A stretch of DNA of 64,000 nt from Salegentibacter mishustinae. Lineage in GTDB: Bacteria > Bacteroidota > Bacteroidia > Flavobacteriales > Flavobacteriaceae. The translations under genes and the position numbers were made by a program. The notes under the pieces are model-generated. The model saw only the letters and a program-made list of their open reading frames with translations, was not told the DNA's origin and searched no databases. The stretch spans positions 2,604,001-2,668,000 of the forward strand of contig NZ_LLKN01000002.1 of NCBI RefSeq assembly GCF_002900095.1, read 5' to 3'. How positions within the stretch are numbered: the stretch's first letter is position 1; each line of letters starts with the position of its first letter. Positions 17,747 through 21,372 of the stretch are shown in pieces.

Positions 17747-18799
17747 ATGTTAGATTTTGTAATTGTTGGTGGCGCTCAAGCCGGACTTTCTATAGCTTAT
17801 TATCTCAATGAACTTGACAAAAGTTATGTTGTGGTAGATAAGGAGAAAGAAGTAGGCGCTTCCTGGTTAAATCGCTGGGATTCCCTTAAGCTTTTTACGC
17901 CTTCAGAATTCAATAATTTACCGGGAATGGATTTTCCTGCGAAAAAAGGTTATTATCCTACTAAAGAAGATGTTGCTGAATACTTTAAAAACTATGTAGC
18001 TAAATTTAATATTGATGTTCGTCTAAATACATTGGTGGAGCAAGTTAGCAAAGAAGAAGATTACTTTATTCTGAAACATCAGGAGGGCGAGATTAAGTCC
18101 AAAAATGTAGTTATCGCTACCGGGCCATTTCATATTCCATACACACCTTCCTTTTCCAAGAAAATATCAGAAGACATTTTTCAAATTCATAGTAACTATT
18201 ATAAAAATCCGGGTCAATTAAAAAAAGGTCCAGCGATGGTTGTTGGAGCCGGAGATTCGGGTTTTCAAATCTTAGATGAAGTCTCCCAGACAAATAGAAC
18301 AACTTATTTTTCGGGCGCTACCGATGTGCGTGTGCTTCCGCAGGAAATTTTAGGAAAAACTTTATGGTGGTGGTTTACTAAAATAGGTTTCCTAAATTTT
18401 AGCCGAAAAACCTGGTTGGGGAAAAAGTTGAGTCAGTCTAAGCAACCTATTATTGGCACGGATGTAAAAGGTATCCTGAAAAGAGATAATGTAATACCTG
18501 TAGGAAAAACTAAGAACGCAAAAGGTGAAATTATAATTACTGAAAATCGAAAAATTGAAGAGCTAAAGAATATCGTCTGGGCCACCGGCTACCGACCTAA
18601 TTTTAGTTGGATAGAAGGTTTAGAACTTACTAAAGACGGTTACCCAAAGCATAATCGCGGCATAAGTAATATTGAAGGACTTTACTTTATAGGTCTTCCC
18701 TGGTTGCATACAAGAGGCTCAGCAACTTTAGGCGGAATTAAAAAAGACGCTCAATACCTTGCCAATTATATTGAAGCTGAAGAAAAAACACTTGCTTAG
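17747..18799 (+). CDS. FAD/NAD(P)-dependent monooxygenase-like oxidoreductase
   Basis: 350 residues with two Rossmann dinucleotide motifs: FAD at 4-20 (VIVGGAQAGLSIAYYL, with GGAQAG in place of the usual GxGxxG Pro-Ala form) and NAD(P) at about 165 (AMVVGAGDSGFQIL). The conserved WATGYRPNFSW and LYFIGLPWLHTRGS motifs fit the CzcO/flavin-containing monooxygenase-like group. Substrate is unknown. Monocistronic: a small AAAACC-GGTTTTT hairpin follows. Confidence 0.85.
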   Translation: MLDFVIVGGAQAGLSIAYYLNELDKSYVVVDKEKEVGASWLNRWDSLKLFTPSEFNNLPGMDFPAKKGYYPTKEDVAEYFKNYVAKFNIDVRLNTLVEQVSKEEDYFILKHQEGEIKSKNVVIATGPFHIPYTPSFSKKISEDIFQIHSNYYKNPGQLKKGPAMVVGAGDSGFQILDEVSQTNRTTYFSGATDVRVLPQEILGKTLWWWFTKIGFLNFSRKTWLGKKLSQSKQPIIGTDVKGILKRDNVIPVGKTKNAKGEIIITENRKIEELKNIVWATGYRPNFSWIEGLELTKDGYPKHNRGISNIEGLYFIGLPWLHTRGSATLGGIKKDAQYLANYIEAEEKTLA

Positions 18800-18800
18800 C

Positions 18801-18818
18801 AAAACCTGTGAGGTTTTT
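18801..18818 (+). terminator. Short hairpin terminator after the oxidoreductase gene
   Basis: AAAACC and GGTTTTT flank a 5-nt loop one base after the stop codon, followed by T-rich sequence. Arms are short, so the call is moderate. Confidence 0.5.
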
Positions 18819-18819
18819 C

Positions 18820-18918
18820 TTAAATATTTTGACACCAATTTTTGCTTAGTCGCAAACCATCTTTCTTGATGTCTATTAGCGCTTCAGAAAATATTATATA
18901 GACGTAAAAAATAGGCAT
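18820..18918 (-). pseudogene. GIY-YIG nuclease remnant, third copy
   Basis: Starts with ATG exactly 386 bp below the start of the second copy. The first 14 codons (MPIFYVYIIFSEAL) align with the intact gene (MSKFHVYILFSEAL), then the reading diverges and stops at 32 residues. The YIG motif, Arg and Glu of the active site are all absent, so it is a dead 5' fragment. It is preceded by the same hairpin terminator and tRNA-like remnant as the other copies. Confidence 0.8.
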
Positions 18919-18922
18919 AAAA

Positions 18923-18953
18923 AAATCCCTAAAGTAGGTATACTTTGGGATTT
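18923..18953 (-). terminator. Rho-independent terminator, unit 3
   Basis: On the minus strand AAATCCC-AAAGTA pairs with TACTTTAGGGATTT (one bulge), followed by a T-run that leads into the ATG of the remnant. Same hairpin as at 19309-19339 and 19695-19725. Confidence 0.75.
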
Positions 18954-18964
18954 GGGAATAAAAG

Positions 18965-19059
18965 TGGGCGCGAAGGGATTCAACTGCCTGATCCTCCCGA
19001 TGTGAAATCGGGATGCTCTGAACCATACCTTGTCCCGAATTTACTTCGGGATGAGCTAC
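18965..19059 (-). pseudogene. tRNA-Val-like remnant C
   Basis: About 95 nt. Its 3' part (GAATCCCTTCGCGCCCA) is the tRNA-Val T-arm/acceptor 3' strand and GTAGCTCA is the tRNA D-arm box, but the 5' acceptor strand is gone, the D-loop is filled by a TCCCGAAGTAAATTCGGGA hairpin, and the anticodon arm is TCCCGATTTCACATCGGGA instead of the tRNA-Val arm. The T-loop reads CAGTTGAAT, not GGTTCGAAT. It cannot fold as a normal tRNA. Confidence 0.75.
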
Positions 19060-19304
19060 TTTTTAAATAATTTCTCAATCATTATTCGACTTTTGCACTT
19101 CTTAATTTGTCGCTCTCTTCGAATTGCTTCTGTTCTGGTTTTAAACTCTTCAGAATACACCAGAACCCAATCTTTAGCTTTCGATGTAAAAACTTTATTA
19201 CTTTGTAAATGCTTTTCTAAACGAATATTTATATCTTGAGTAGAACTGATATAATATTTATTCAGCGCTTCAGAAAATAGTATATAAATGTGAAATTTTG
19301 ACAT
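19056..19304 (-). CDS. GIY-YIG nuclease, second copy, probably inactive
   Basis: 82 residues from the ATG at 19304, which sits right after a terminator T-run as in the intact copy (the frame is open further upstream through the tRNA remnant, but that part is not homologous). It matches the intact copy except for about a dozen changes. Notably YYIGST becomes YYISST, losing the Gly of the YIG motif, and KQGF becomes NKVF and Trp70 becomes Cys. Arg28 and the Glu-rich TRTEAIRRER segment remain. Likely a decaying duplicate. Confidence 0.75.
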   Translation of the reverse strand: MSKFHIYILFSEALNKYYISSTQDINIRLEKHLQSNKVFTSKAKDWVLVYSEEFKTRTEAIRRERQIKKCKSRIMIEKLFKK

Positions 19305-19308
19305 AAAA

Positions 19309-19339
19309 AAATCCCTAAAGTAGGTGTACTTTGGGATTT
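19309..19339 (-). terminator. Rho-independent terminator, unit 2
   Basis: Same hairpin as in unit 1 with one changed loop base (GTACACC for GTATACC), followed by the T-run that abuts the ATG of the second nuclease copy. Confidence 0.75.
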
Positions 19340-19350
19340 GAGAATAAAAG

Positions 19351-19445
19351 TGGGCGCGAAGGGATTCAATTGCCTGATCCTCCCGATGTAAAATCGGGAT
19401 GCTCTGAACCATACCTTGTCCCGAATTTACTTCGGGATGAGCTAC
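19351..19445 (-). pseudogene. tRNA-Val-like remnant B
   Basis: About 95 nt, nearly identical to remnant C. It keeps GTAGCTCA, GGTTCAGAGCA and the 3' CCCTTCGCGCCCA, but carries a TCCCGAAG...TTCGGGA insertion in the D-loop and a TCCCGATTTTACATCGGGA anticodon arm. The anticodon stem is still perfectly paired although its sequence differs wholly from the functional tRNA-Val (CTTGG/CCAAG). It has lost the 5' acceptor strand. Confidence 0.75.
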
Positions 19446-19690
19446 TTTTTAAATAATTTCTCAATCATTATTCGACTTTTCCACTTCTTAATTTGTCGCT
19501 CTCTTCGAATTGCTTCTGTTCTTATTTTGAATTCTTCAGAATACACCAGAACCCAATCTTTAGCCTTCGATGTAAAACCTTGCTTGCTTTGTAAATGCTT
19601 TTCTAAACGTATATTAATATCCTGTGTAGAACCGATATAATATTTATTCAGTGCTTCAGAAAATAGTATATAAACGTGAAATTTTGACAT
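19442..19690 (-). CDS. Small GIY-YIG endonuclease, intact copy
   Basis: 82 residues. Single GIY-YIG domain: Tyr7 in VYIL, Tyr18 and Gly20 in YYIGST, Arg28 in NIRLEKH, and acidic residues in the C-terminal RTEAIRRERQIKKW (Glu59/Glu64). This is the compact stand-alone type (YhbQ/UPF0213-like) with no attached DNA-binding domain. It begins right after the terminator of the tRNA-Val at 19737-19811, and its TAG stop lies in the D-arm box of the next tRNA-like remnant. Transcription would need read-through of the terminator or an internal promoter, which I could not find. Family call firm; activity and target are not known. Confidence 0.88.
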   Translation of the reverse strand: MSKFHVYILFSEALNKYYIGSTQDINIRLEKHLQSKQGFTSKAKDWVLVYSEEFKIRTEAIRRERQIKKWKSRIMIEKLFKK

Positions 19691-19694
19691 AAAA

Positions 19695-19725
19695 AAATCC
19701 CTAAAGTAGGTATACTTTGGGATTT
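19695..19725 (-). terminator. Rho-independent terminator after tRNA-Val, unit 1
   Basis: Minus strand AAATCCC-AAAGTA-TACC-TACTTTAGGGATTT followed by T residues, 11 nt after the tRNA discriminator base. The nuclease ATG follows the T-run directly. Confidence 0.8.
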
Positions 19726-19736
19726 GGGAATAAAAG

Positions 19737-19811
19737 TGGGCGCGAAGGGATTCGAACCCCTGACCCCTTGGGTGTAAACCAAGTGCTCTGAACCAACTGA
19801 GCTACGCGCCC
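19737..19811 (-). tRNA. tRNA-Val (anticodon TAC)
   Basis: 75 nt cloverleaf: acceptor GGGCGCG/CGCGCCC, D-arm box TAGCTCAGTTGGTTCAGAGC, anticodon stem CTTGG/CCAAG with loop TTTACAC (anticodon TAC), T-arm GGGGTTCGAATCCC, discriminator A. CCA is not encoded. Identical by eye to the copy at 20011-20085. Followed by a terminator and then the GIY-YIG gene. Confidence 0.95.
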
Positions 19812-19863
19812 TAAATAATTTTAATAAATTCTACTTACTAATAAAAGAAAGCACAATATTTTA

Positions 19864-19930
19864 TGGGATTTTAATCCCTGATCCTCCCGATGTAAAATCG
19901 GGATGCTCTGAACTAACTGAGCTACGTCTT
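19864..19930 (-). pseudogene. tRNA-like remnant D between the two tRNA-Val genes
   Basis: Minus strand reads ACGTAGCTCAGTTAGTTCAG then GAGCA, the substituted anticodon arm TCCCGATTTTACATCGGGA, and a T-arm GGGATTAAAATCCC with the invariant TTCGAAT changed to TTAAAAT. The two acceptor strands (AAGACGT and ATAAAATA) do not pair. It keeps the normal D-loop, unlike remnants B and C, and is followed by no nuclease gene. Confidence 0.7.
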
Positions 19931-19942
19931 AAAATTTCAATA

Positions 19943-19967
19943 AAAACCTTACTCTATTGAAGGTTTT
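19943..19967 (-). terminator. Second hairpin downstream of the first tRNA-Val
   Basis: AAAACCTT and AAGGTTTT arms with a 9-nt loop; on the minus strand followed by TTATTG. Backs up the stronger hairpin at 19974-20001. Confidence 0.45.
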
Positions 19968-19973
19968 GCTAAA

Positions 19974-20001
19974 AAAAGGCTTCCTTTTATAGAAGCCTTT
20001 T
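19974..20001 (-). terminator. Rho-independent terminator after tRNA-Val (20011-20085)
   Basis: AAAAGGCTTC and GAAGCCTTTT form a 10-bp stem with an 8-nt loop; on the minus strand it ends in TTTTTTT. It lies 9 nt after the tRNA. Confidence 0.8.
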
Positions 20002-20010
20002 GAATAGTGG

Positions 20011-20085
20011 TGGGCGCGAAGGGATTCGAACCCCTGACCCCTTGGGTGTAAACCAAGTGCTCTGAACCAACTGAGCTACGCGCCC
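20011..20085 (-). tRNA. tRNA-Val (anticodon TAC), upstream copy
   Basis: Same 75-nt cloverleaf and TTTACAC anticodon loop as the copy at 19737-19811; no encoded CCA. It is the first of the leftward tRNA group and ends at its own terminator, so the two copies look separately terminated. Confidence 0.95.
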
Positions 20086-20151
20086 TATTCTTGAATTCGG
20101 ATGCAAATATAGACTAGTTTTTAATCTACACCAAGAAAAATTTCAAAAAAA

Positions 20152-21372
20152 TTAAATTATTTCTGCAACGGTAAATGTGCTCCCACCAACAAAGACCAAA
20201 TCTTCATCTAAGGCCGCATCCACGGCAGCATCATAGGCTTCTGAAACAGAATTAAATACCCTTCCTTCCAACTCAAATTCTGAAGCTTTTTCCTGTAAAA
20301 TTTTAGCTTCCAGCCCACGAGGAACTTCTGGTTTTGAAAAGTAATAAATAGCCGTTTTTGGAAATAAGGGTAAGATTTTTTCTAAATCTTTATCGTTTAC
20401 CACACCCAAAACTATATGCAAATGCTGAAATTTTTCCTTTTTTAGTTGCTCAAAAACTAAAGTTAAGCCTTCGGTATTATGTGCGGTATCGCAAATCACC
20501 CTGGGTTTTTCCTTTAATATATCCCAGCGACCCTGCAAGGAAGTATGCAACTTTACACTATTAAGTCCGTTTTTAAGACATTCTTCCGGGATTTCCCAGC
20601 CCTTTTCTCTTAAAATTTTTACCCCGGCAATTGCGGTATTCATATTCTTATTCTGGTAATCTCCTTTAAGATCGGTATGGTAGGTTGGGAATTTCAAATC
20701 CTGAGCAAAATATATCGCTGAATTATGTTTTTTAGCTTCAGCCTTAAAAATGTCGGTAGTTTCTTTTTGCTTTTCGCCAATGATTACCGGAATATTATCT
20801 TTTATAATTCCTGCTTTTTCCCGGGCTATTTCAGGAAGAGAATTTCCTAAAAACGCGATATGATCTATCCCAATATTAGTAATTACCGAAACCTCTGGTA
20901 TGATAATATTTGTAGAATCTAGCCGACCGCCAAGGCCTACTTCTATAATAGCAATATCAACTTTCACCCTTGAAAAGTAATCGAAGGCCATTCCTACGGT
21001 CATTTCAAAAAAAGAAAGTTGATTTTCAGTTAGGAAATCTTTGTTTGCATATATAAAACTTACTACAGATTTCTTCGGAATAAATTTACCGTTTACCTTA
21101 ATCCGCTCCCGGAAATCCTTTAAATGTGGCGACGTATATAAACCTACTTTATAACCGGCTTCCTGAAACACCGAAGCCAACATATGGCTGGTAGAACCTT
21201 TTCCGTTGGTACCGGCAATATGAACCGACTTAAAGTTTTTATGCGGATTATTTAGATGTTTTGCAAGTTTAAGGGTACGCGAAAGATCTTTTTTGAATGC
21301 CTGCGCACCTATTCTTTGGTACATAGGCAACTGCTGAAACATCCAGTCAACAGTTTGGGTATATGCATCCAC
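20152..21372 (-). CDS. folC: Folylpolyglutamate synthase / dihydrofolate synthase
   Basis: 406 residues. Adds glutamate to folates (and to dihydropteroate if bifunctional). The ATP-binding P-loop is HIAGTNGKGSTSHML near residue 50, followed by VGLYTSPHLKDFRERI, IIEVGLGGRLDSTN and ISVITNIGIDHIAFLG-type blocks, the Mur-ligase pattern. The GTG start directly abuts the tonB stop (no spacer), so it is the last gene of exbB-exbD-tonB-folC. DWMFQQLPMYQRIG just after the GTG is a family feature, supporting this start. Confidence 0.94.
   Translation of the reverse strand: MDAYTQTVDWMFQQLPMYQRIGAQAFKKDLSRTLKLAKHLNNPHKNFKSVHIAGTNGKGSTSHMLASVFQEAGYKVGLYTSPHLKDFRERIKVNGKFIPKKSVVSFIYANKDFLTENQLSFFEMTVGMAFDYFSRVKVDIAIIEVGLGGRLDSTNIIIPEVSVITNIGIDHIAFLGNSLPEIAREKAGIIKDNIPVIIGEKQKETTDIFKAEAKKHNSAIYFAQDLKFPTYHTDLKGDYQNKNMNTAIAGVKILREKGWEIPEECLKNGLNSVKLHTSLQGRWDILKEKPRVICDTAHNTEGLTLVFEQLKKEKFQHLHIVLGVVNDKDLEKILPLFPKTAIYYFSKPEVPRGLEAKILQEKASEFELEGRVFNSVSEAYDAAVDAALDEDLVFVGGSTFTVAEII

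Follow-up and report, generated by a model that had tools for sequence, protein, structure and literature searches.

In Salegentibacter mishustinae a gene for a very small GIY-YIG nuclease lies between two copies of one tRNA gene, one of which stays functional. The locus was analysed in a window of 64,000 nt (contig NZ_LLKN01000002.1, positions 2,604,001 to 2,668,000), where it forms an array at tRNA-Val. The unit comprises a crippled copy of the tRNA, a terminator and one GIY-YIG gene, ~300–400 bp in all, placed next to an intact tRNA of that identity. In related loci the same sandwich is found at many tRNA identities, with a strand bias, a hairpin in the crippled copy, the mark of purifying selection on the Val-type nuclease, presence and absence at a single site, and tandem arrays. 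We put at about 0.6 the probability that this locus belongs to a class of minimal elements of Bacteroidota chromosomes that spread or amplify by nuclease-stimulated recombination between tRNA copies.

Structure of the tRNA-Val array

The array is located on the minus strand, running from 20085 to 18877 of the window, and its GIY-YIG cassettes repeat with a period of 386 bp. Starting at the 5′ end, an intact tRNA-Val(TAC) gene with no directly adjoining GIY-YIG gene (20008–20085) is followed by its own terminator and by a crippled tRNA-Val copy, also without a nuclease gene (19865–19928), in which a hairpin (core 19886–19902) occupies the place of the anticodon arm. A second intact tRNA-Val(TAC) gene (19736–19811) forms the 5′ border of the array. 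It is followed by a terminator of the element type, consisting of a hairpin and T-run (19691–19735), and then by GIY-YIG gene 1 (19442–19690), crippled tRNA-Val copy 1 (19350–19445, aligned to tRNA nt 17–76), terminator copy 2 (19305–19349), GIY-YIG gene 2 (19056–19304), crippled tRNA-Val copy 2 (18964–19059) and terminator copy 3 (18919–18963). The array ends with a 5′ fragment of a GIY-YIG gene of ~14 codons (18877–18918).

The three GIY-YIG starts (19690, 19304 and 18918) are spaced by exactly 386 bp. The same hairpin and T-run precedes each of them, and the three terminators have folding energies of −12.3 to −12.4 kcal/mol (z −4.3 to −5.0), that of the first being −12.4 kcal/mol (z −4.3). 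A direct repeat of 300 nt at 18878 and 19264 has 94% identity, and one of 117 nt is found at 18878, 19264 and 19650, the latter two being 91% and 89% identical to the first. The TAG stop codon of both full reading frames is inside a GTAGCTC box of tRNA-Val-like sequence. Both intact tRNA-Val genes, called by ARAGORN, score 72.9 bits with the Rfam tRNA model. The upstream crippled copy scores 18.7 bits, under the gathering threshold of 29, and the two downstream copies give no Rfam tRNA match at E ≤ 1. Each downstream copy contains two CCCGA..TCGGG hairpins, with cores at 19420–19436 and 19382–19398 in copy 1 and at 19034–19050 and 18996–19012 in copy 2; five of the nine CCCGN..N′CGGG palindromes in the window are at the array.

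The original prediction, made by reading the window without database searches, had described three starts exactly 386 bp apart, the same terminator T-run before each, both full genes stopping at a TAG within a tRNA box, a working-looking tRNA in the first unit and a truncated last gene, and all of these features stand. It had also spoken of tRNA-Val fragments. The pieces are indeed derived from tRNA, but rather than mere fragments the Val class often consists of near-whole copies in which the anticodon arm has been exchanged for a hairpin, and in other tRNA classes the crippled copy is found 5′ of the nuclease.

The nuclease

The protein consists almost wholly of a GIY-YIG domain (82 amino acids; Pfam PF01541, E = 8.4e-17 for gene 1 and 2.2e-13 for gene 2, above the cut-off). 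Y7, Y18, R28 and E64 are invariant across 10 aligned relatives, the catalytic Tyr, Arg and Glu among them. In gene 2, the protein of which is 91% identical, Ser replaces the Gly of the YIG motif, as it does in one relative (L015), and this gene may be inactive in consequence. Among Val-type nuclease genes the ratio of non-synonymous to synonymous substitution (dN/dS) is 0.06–0.24 in 14 of 15 comparisons, with the last undefined and some dS values saturated. These ratios suggest that purifying selection maintains the function of the Val-type nuclease. A role as a defence gene was rejected, PADLOC giving only partial matches (E = 1e-5 to 6e-4), none over the whole protein.

Related loci at many tRNA genes

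Three sets of related loci were assembled. The first, from named genomes, comprised the best 80 of 269 relatives and spanned Flavobacteriales, Bacteroidales, Chitinophagales, Saprospirales and Sphingobacteriales among others; its three Salegentibacter loci (L041–L043) were excluded from the counts. The second came from 199 Flavobacteriaceae-level genomes, of which 142 had a match, and provided 30 loci, less L121 and L122. The third consisted of 60 regions hand-picked among the matches listed, without regard to their neighbours. Two of the resulting 165 loci had no near-full nuclease and were dropped, and the loci of the genus itself (L001–L043) stand outside the 163 that were counted.

A called tRNA is located within 300 bp of the nuclease in 117 of the 163 loci (61/77 from named genomes, 22/28 from Flavobacteriaceae-level genomes and 34/58 among the added regions). 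This survey of the flanks of homologues of the 82-amino acid protein had been set beforehand as a test by which the idea might be refuted, and the tRNA link survived it. All 160 tRNAs within 300 bp are on the same strand as the GIY-YIG gene, 126 upstream and 34 downstream with none antisense. Since tRNA clusters give several per locus these counts are not all independent, and the division into upstream and downstream is blurred because four of the called tRNAs are crippled copies. In 67 of 88 upstream cases the nuclease domain begins 30–70 nt after the tRNA ends, so that a terminator fits between them. Where the tRNA is downstream, the nuclease stop codon is inside the called tRNA in 19 of 29 loci, three of which (L074, L079 and L117) are hairpin-bearing copies. 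Because the sandwich recurs across the surveyed loci, the array in the window is more than a chance arrangement.

The far side of the nuclease carries a degenerate copy of its own tRNA. Of 115 linked loci, 104 have a remnant that outscores the best of 20 shuffles, and in 109 the locus's own tRNA is a better match than the mean of other tRNAs (median scores 63 for own tRNA, 25 for the mean of others and 22 for the best shuffle; two of the 117 linked loci gave no score, and the pool of other tRNAs holds the four crippled copies). An earlier comparison, which gave the alignment of crippled copy 1 to tRNA nt 17–76, had a poor control, as its tRNA pool contained crippled copies. When the intact tRNA is upstream the remnant mostly reaches the 3′ end of the tRNA, and when it is downstream the remnant begins at tRNA nt 1 in 20 of 29 loci. 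The nuclease gene sits as if it had been inserted into a tRNA gene, one side of which was then made whole again.

A CCCGN..N′CGGG hairpin is present on the crippled side in 71 of the 104 loci (from 117 linked) that came within limits of gap and length, with exact TCCCGA..TCGGGA arms in 59 of the 71. It is within the called tRNA in 4 of the 104, and these are the four crippled copies. Its position is characteristic of the tRNA: the hairpin takes the place of nt 29–45 in most Val loci (it is present in 36/38) and of nt 28–44 in most Arg(TCT) loci (15/15), where by eye the loop is often still like an anticodon loop. It is found in 3/5 Phe loci, at nt 57–61 in three, in 4/6 upstream Asn loci, at nt 46–50 in three, and in 2/5 upstream Met loci, at nt 36–40 in both. 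Further hairpin-bearing tRNA-like remnants are seen in L185, L186, L192 and L201. ARAGORN calls some of the tRNA-like copies beside nucleases suppressor (TTA) or selenocysteine (TCA) tRNAs (L045 2235–2303, L052 2234–2311, L068 2240–2318, L078 2246–2323 and L050 1876–1952), and the crippled copies so called are likely a source of misannotation.

The tRNA at which a nuclease lies agrees with its place in the nuclease tree. For 186 nucleases, on a tree built from 78 columns and with about half of its inner branches open, the tRNA label (23 labels) changes 53 times compared with a mean of 110 when shuffled; 32 of the changes are among linked rows. Nucleases are also found at two tRNA identities in one genome, for example Val and Arg(ACG) in G025, Phe and Asp in G066, and Phe and Asn in G161.

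Of 67 loci without a tRNA 57 were scored, and in 34 of these the gene is flanked by significant direct repeats, many of the 34 being hairpin-rich. By eye some of these repeats are tRNA remnants, while others are hairpin-rich interspersed repeats, and sandwiching of the nuclease between host copies may be a more general habit than the tRNA sites. Within the genus, L001, L020, L026, L028, L030, L035 and others lie between hairpin-rich interspersed direct repeats with no tRNA.

Variation within the genus

A search of this genome for GIY-YIG genes (10 matches) revealed two further tandem genes, 371 bp apart, behind tRNA-Phe. The order is tRNA-Phe, terminator, GIY-YIG gene, tRNA-Phe 3′ piece, terminator, GIY-YIG gene, 3′ piece, terminator and fragment, and the 3′ piece after the first nuclease bears a CCCCGA..TCGGGG hairpin. 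The Phe-type proteins are 42–45% identical to the first Val-type protein, and the array is an independent second case of the same plan in this genome.

The tRNA-Phe site was compared in 14 genomes of the genus, over 1.5 kb in each (0.4 kb for G007). One contains the array (G000, this genome), one a fragment of ~11 codons (G008) and 12 neither. The array starts at the end of a terminator that is present at the empty sites. At the tRNA-Val site there are two nuclease genes in G000 and G014, one in G008 and one in G010, on another contig. G006 has a single gene cut short where a repeat begins, short 5′ nuclease fragments are present in G001, G004 and probably G005, the fragment in G007 is at a contig end, and G009 has the crippled tRNA only. 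No tRNA was found beside the marker gene of this site in G002, G011 and G012, and no match to the marker gene in G003, G010 and G013. Related strains had been proposed as the place to look for empty tRNA sites, and filled, fragmentary and empty sites are found within the genus; presence and absence of this kind between close relatives, a criterion for homing genes, is seen at tRNA-Phe and at tRNA-Val.

In G014 and G001 the intact tRNA-Val is followed by a different terminator, behind which are a crippled tRNA, its own terminator and the nuclease or its start. In G000 an element-type terminator directly follows the intact tRNA. This difference would be the expected product of recombination between an intact and a crippled copy. 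Across 15 genomes of the genus, the close Val-type relatives adjoin tRNA-Val. One relative adjoins tRNA-Asp, where a crippled 5′ piece precedes the nuclease gene and the intact tRNA follows it. The 21 less similar small GIY-YIG loci of the genus, two of which belong to this genome, have no tRNA within the fetched stretch of up to 1.5 kb on each side.

At tRNA-Val and tRNA-Phe sites of the genus (L153, L156, L270 and L271) a repeat starting GGATCA directly adjoins either a truncated nuclease fragment or the tRNA itself; it may be the end of an insertion sequence. Because several Salegentibacter nuclease fragments end at this repeat, they are more simply read as the outcome of insertion and deletion by another repeat. 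A special mechanism for the truncated last gene of the array was considered and is not needed, as fragments after repeated terminators are common and the GGATCA repeat is found at several.

DISCUSSION

Proposed mechanism and its difficulties

In the mechanism that we propose, the nuclease would break DNA in or near tRNA-like sequence, and homologous recombination between tRNA copies would repair the break, thereby adding, spreading or amplifying the unit. The nucleotides flanking the exchanged arm would act as homology. A crossover could fall on either side of the hairpin, so that the intact tRNA would come to stand before or after the nuclease, and on this proposal both orientations are explained. 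Unequal exchange between the repeats would cause arrays to grow and collapse. The tRNA would then be a safe harbour and homology arm, not a passenger. The original prediction of a tiny mobile or amplifying element bordered by tRNA is well supported in its anatomy; its movement we only infer. Going further, we would suggest, tentatively and as something we rather doubt, a one-gene GIY-YIG mobile element new in kind, whose home is the hairpin-forming sequence of its host, both tRNA genes and hairpin-rich interspersed repeats. Such an element would leave a signature hairpin in one host copy, at a site that depends on the nuclease lineage, and would integrate and amplify with both copies as homology arms, the tRNA genes of the phylum being its habitat.

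A number of observations weigh against nuclease-driven spread. Cleavage, movement and excision were none of them observed, and the first two are inferred. The main difficulty of the mechanism is self-targeting. The intact tRNA-Phe is identical from nt 1 to 74 in all 14 genomes, whether the site is filled or empty, and the two tRNA-Val copies in the window do not differ in their alignment to the Rfam tRNA model. Because the intact tRNA does not change between filled and empty sites there is no visible basis for homing by a destroyed or recoded cut site, so the enzyme must either spare intact tRNA genes or cut in a manner governed by structure or context. The protein barely exceeds a catalytic domain, and the source of target specificity is not evident. 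In 46 of the 163 loci no tRNA is called within 300 bp, and 11 of the 115 linked loci lack a remnant that exceeds shuffles (those failing include L044, L086, L110, L149, L206, L208, L213, L221, L223, L227 and L260). Four called tRNAs (L074, L079, L096 and L117) are in fact crippled copies with the hairpin. At tRNA-Phe the nuclease is preceded by the native terminator, which local duplication would fit too. Lastly, the order label changes 14 times on the nuclease tree, where the least possible is 5, with most forks open, and transfer between orders is not demonstrated.

Alternative explanations

That native terminator also fits an in-place segmental amplification without mobility, in which a nuclease beside a tRNA stimulates tandem duplication of tRNA and nuclease together, and the extra tRNAs decay into hairpin-bearing pseudogenes. 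The junction between the nuclease 3′ end and the tRNA 5′ end has the topology reported for the phage nuclease SegB (see below), nuclease arrays at constant spacing are common among the matches listed, and in 49 of 71 loci with an upstream tRNA (5 short contigs were left out) the same terminator repeats after the last nuclease, 18 of the 49 extending 10–246 nt into a nuclease fragment. Arrays of five to eight GIY-YIG genes at a near-constant spacing of ~360–391 bp are seen in L243 (G170), L224 (G187) and L211 (G136). The original prediction had offered a tandem duplication of a tRNA-linked nuclease as its alternative; this is possible for the array itself, but the recurrence at many tRNAs is left unexplained. 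Amplification in place does not account for the same sandwich at so many tRNA identities, nor for crippled copies on the 5′ side and identical hairpin arms in unrelated tRNAs, and we regard it as rather unlikely.

The hairpin itself might instead be the substrate. In REPtrons, REP palindromes scattered in the genome are associated with a small Y1/HuH enzyme, TnpA-REP (RAYT) (PMC3733652, PMC8266576), and in a similar system the GIY-YIG nuclease would act on the TCCCGA..TCGGGA hairpin, with the genomic hairpins as its products. Perfect TCCCGA..TCGGGA hairpins number 54 in this genome compared with one for a reversed control pattern, and 1521 compared with 205 across the 199 genomes. In L044–L120 they reach 2.2 per kb at distances of up to 150 bp from a nuclease, compared with 0.14 per kb in the remaining sequence, and the hairpin-rich direct repeats around tRNA-less nucleases would also be in keeping. 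At several places a scattered hairpin seems to stand in for the top of another hairpin repeat, for example CCTGAAA..TTCAGGATGACG; examples of scattered hairpins are found near position 1500 in L171, L172 and L181. Over the 199 genomes hairpin number correlates with nuclease number (Spearman 0.53 raw, 0.46 given genome size and 0.44 given size and Y1 transposases), while the correlation with the Y1 transposase family is weak (0.19 given size). On subtracting an assumed 0.5, 0.7, 1 or 1.5 hairpins per nuclease, the correlation becomes 0.33, 0.26, 0.15 or 0.02, and with two it is negative (−0.19 given size). This loss at one or more hairpins per nuclease, and the absence of the hairpin from the downstream Arg(TCG) (0/6) and Pro(TGG) (0/4) classes, weigh against such a system, which we consider improbable as a whole; whether hairpin number follows nuclease number beyond the nuclease loci depends on how many hairpins are discounted.

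At the RNA level, the crippled tRNA might serve as an RNA decoy or antitoxin, paired with a GIY-YIG protein that acts as a toxin by cleaving tRNA or DNA. The order of RNA element, terminator and reading frame resembles that of type III toxin–antitoxin loci, and the crippled copies in the window fold better than shuffles (z −2.1 to −3.3). GIY-YIG enzymes are however DNA nucleases, crippled copies of the downstream class usually lack the 3′ part, and nuclease fragments and absences are frequent within the genus, so that we consider this very improbable.

The 3′ ends of tRNA genes are common integration sites, but that the nuclease is a passive remnant at an ordinary hot spot attracting many elements is barely credible given the strict strand bias, the clade-specific tRNA, the duplicate on the opposite side, the lack of an integrase among nine neighbouring proteins scanned with Pfam, and the lack of a match for the window protein in 50,697 phage records (E ≤ 1e-3), with just two loci with relatives in viral contigs, both close to a contig end. 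An origin from phages or viruses was rejected on these phage and viral searches, which covered the window protein's relatives and those of alignment A1. The nine neighbours are by Pfam LrgA, LrgB, a creatininase, an FAD oxidoreductase (downstream of the array, labelled FMO), a Mur-ligase family protein (upstream, labelled folC), ExbD, ExbB, a Glu dehydrogenase and one unmatched protein.

Comparison with known systems

The closest known relations to the present element are phage SegB and the mORFs of fungal mitochondria. SegB of T-even phages is a free-standing GIY-YIG homing endonuclease located beside tRNA genes, which in phage T6 promotes tandem amplification of a tRNA together with its own gene (PMC13096335, PMC2988022), and recombination between the tRNA 5′ region and the segB 3′ region was proposed (PMC13096335). 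Going by these accounts, nuclease-driven amplification of tRNA and nuclease exists in phages. The present element shares the GIY-YIG nuclease adjoining a tRNA, and the junction of nuclease 3′ and tRNA 5′ ends. Unlike SegB, which is phage-borne, it is chromosomal and present at many tRNA identities, and its crippled tRNA with a fixed hairpin has no mention in the available text on SegB.

In mORFs (e.g. in atp6, atp9, cox2 and nad3 of Glomus and atp6 of Allomyces) an endonuclease reading frame inserts in a host gene and carries a replacement 3′ end that keeps the gene functional, the displaced native 3′ end being downstream and the replacement diverged (PMC3630166). The present element similarly carries a duplicate of part of its host gene. 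However, that host is a tRNA gene and not a mitochondrial protein gene, the carried end has not diverged, as the unchanged intact tRNA-Phe of filled and empty genomes indicates, and the mORF account available mentions no hairpin.

REPtrons likewise pair a small enzyme gene with palindromes that occur at scattered genomic sites as well, but their enzyme is a Y1/HuH transposase and not GIY-YIG. Group I introns with homing endonuclease genes occur in tRNA genes (PMC3984707), and thus also place an endonuclease gene at a tRNA locus; in contrast to the intron-containing genes of that account, the intact tRNA here is contiguous. A group I intron was rejected, since Rfam gave no intron family at E ≤ 1 for 18700–20200 of the window and, at the gathering threshold, only tRNA in 17 loci. 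What we describe, a nuclease gene sandwiched between tRNA copies and recurring in several Bacteroidota orders, looks like a miniature selfish element. The open-licence PubMed Central literature, judged mostly by title and start of abstract, yielded no report of such an arrangement in bacterial chromosomes.

Implications

For annotation, the calling of some crippled copies as suppressor or selenocysteine tRNAs by ARAGORN should serve as a warning. If the proposed reading is true, tRNA genes in several orders of Bacteroidota would be host to a selfish element of <400 bp, far smaller than the known integrase-based elements of tRNA genes, and free-standing GIY-YIG nucleases would be linked to the duplication and decay of tRNAs. 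The empty and filled sites within one genus would then provide ready test systems for nuclease-driven tandem amplification in bacterial chromosomes.

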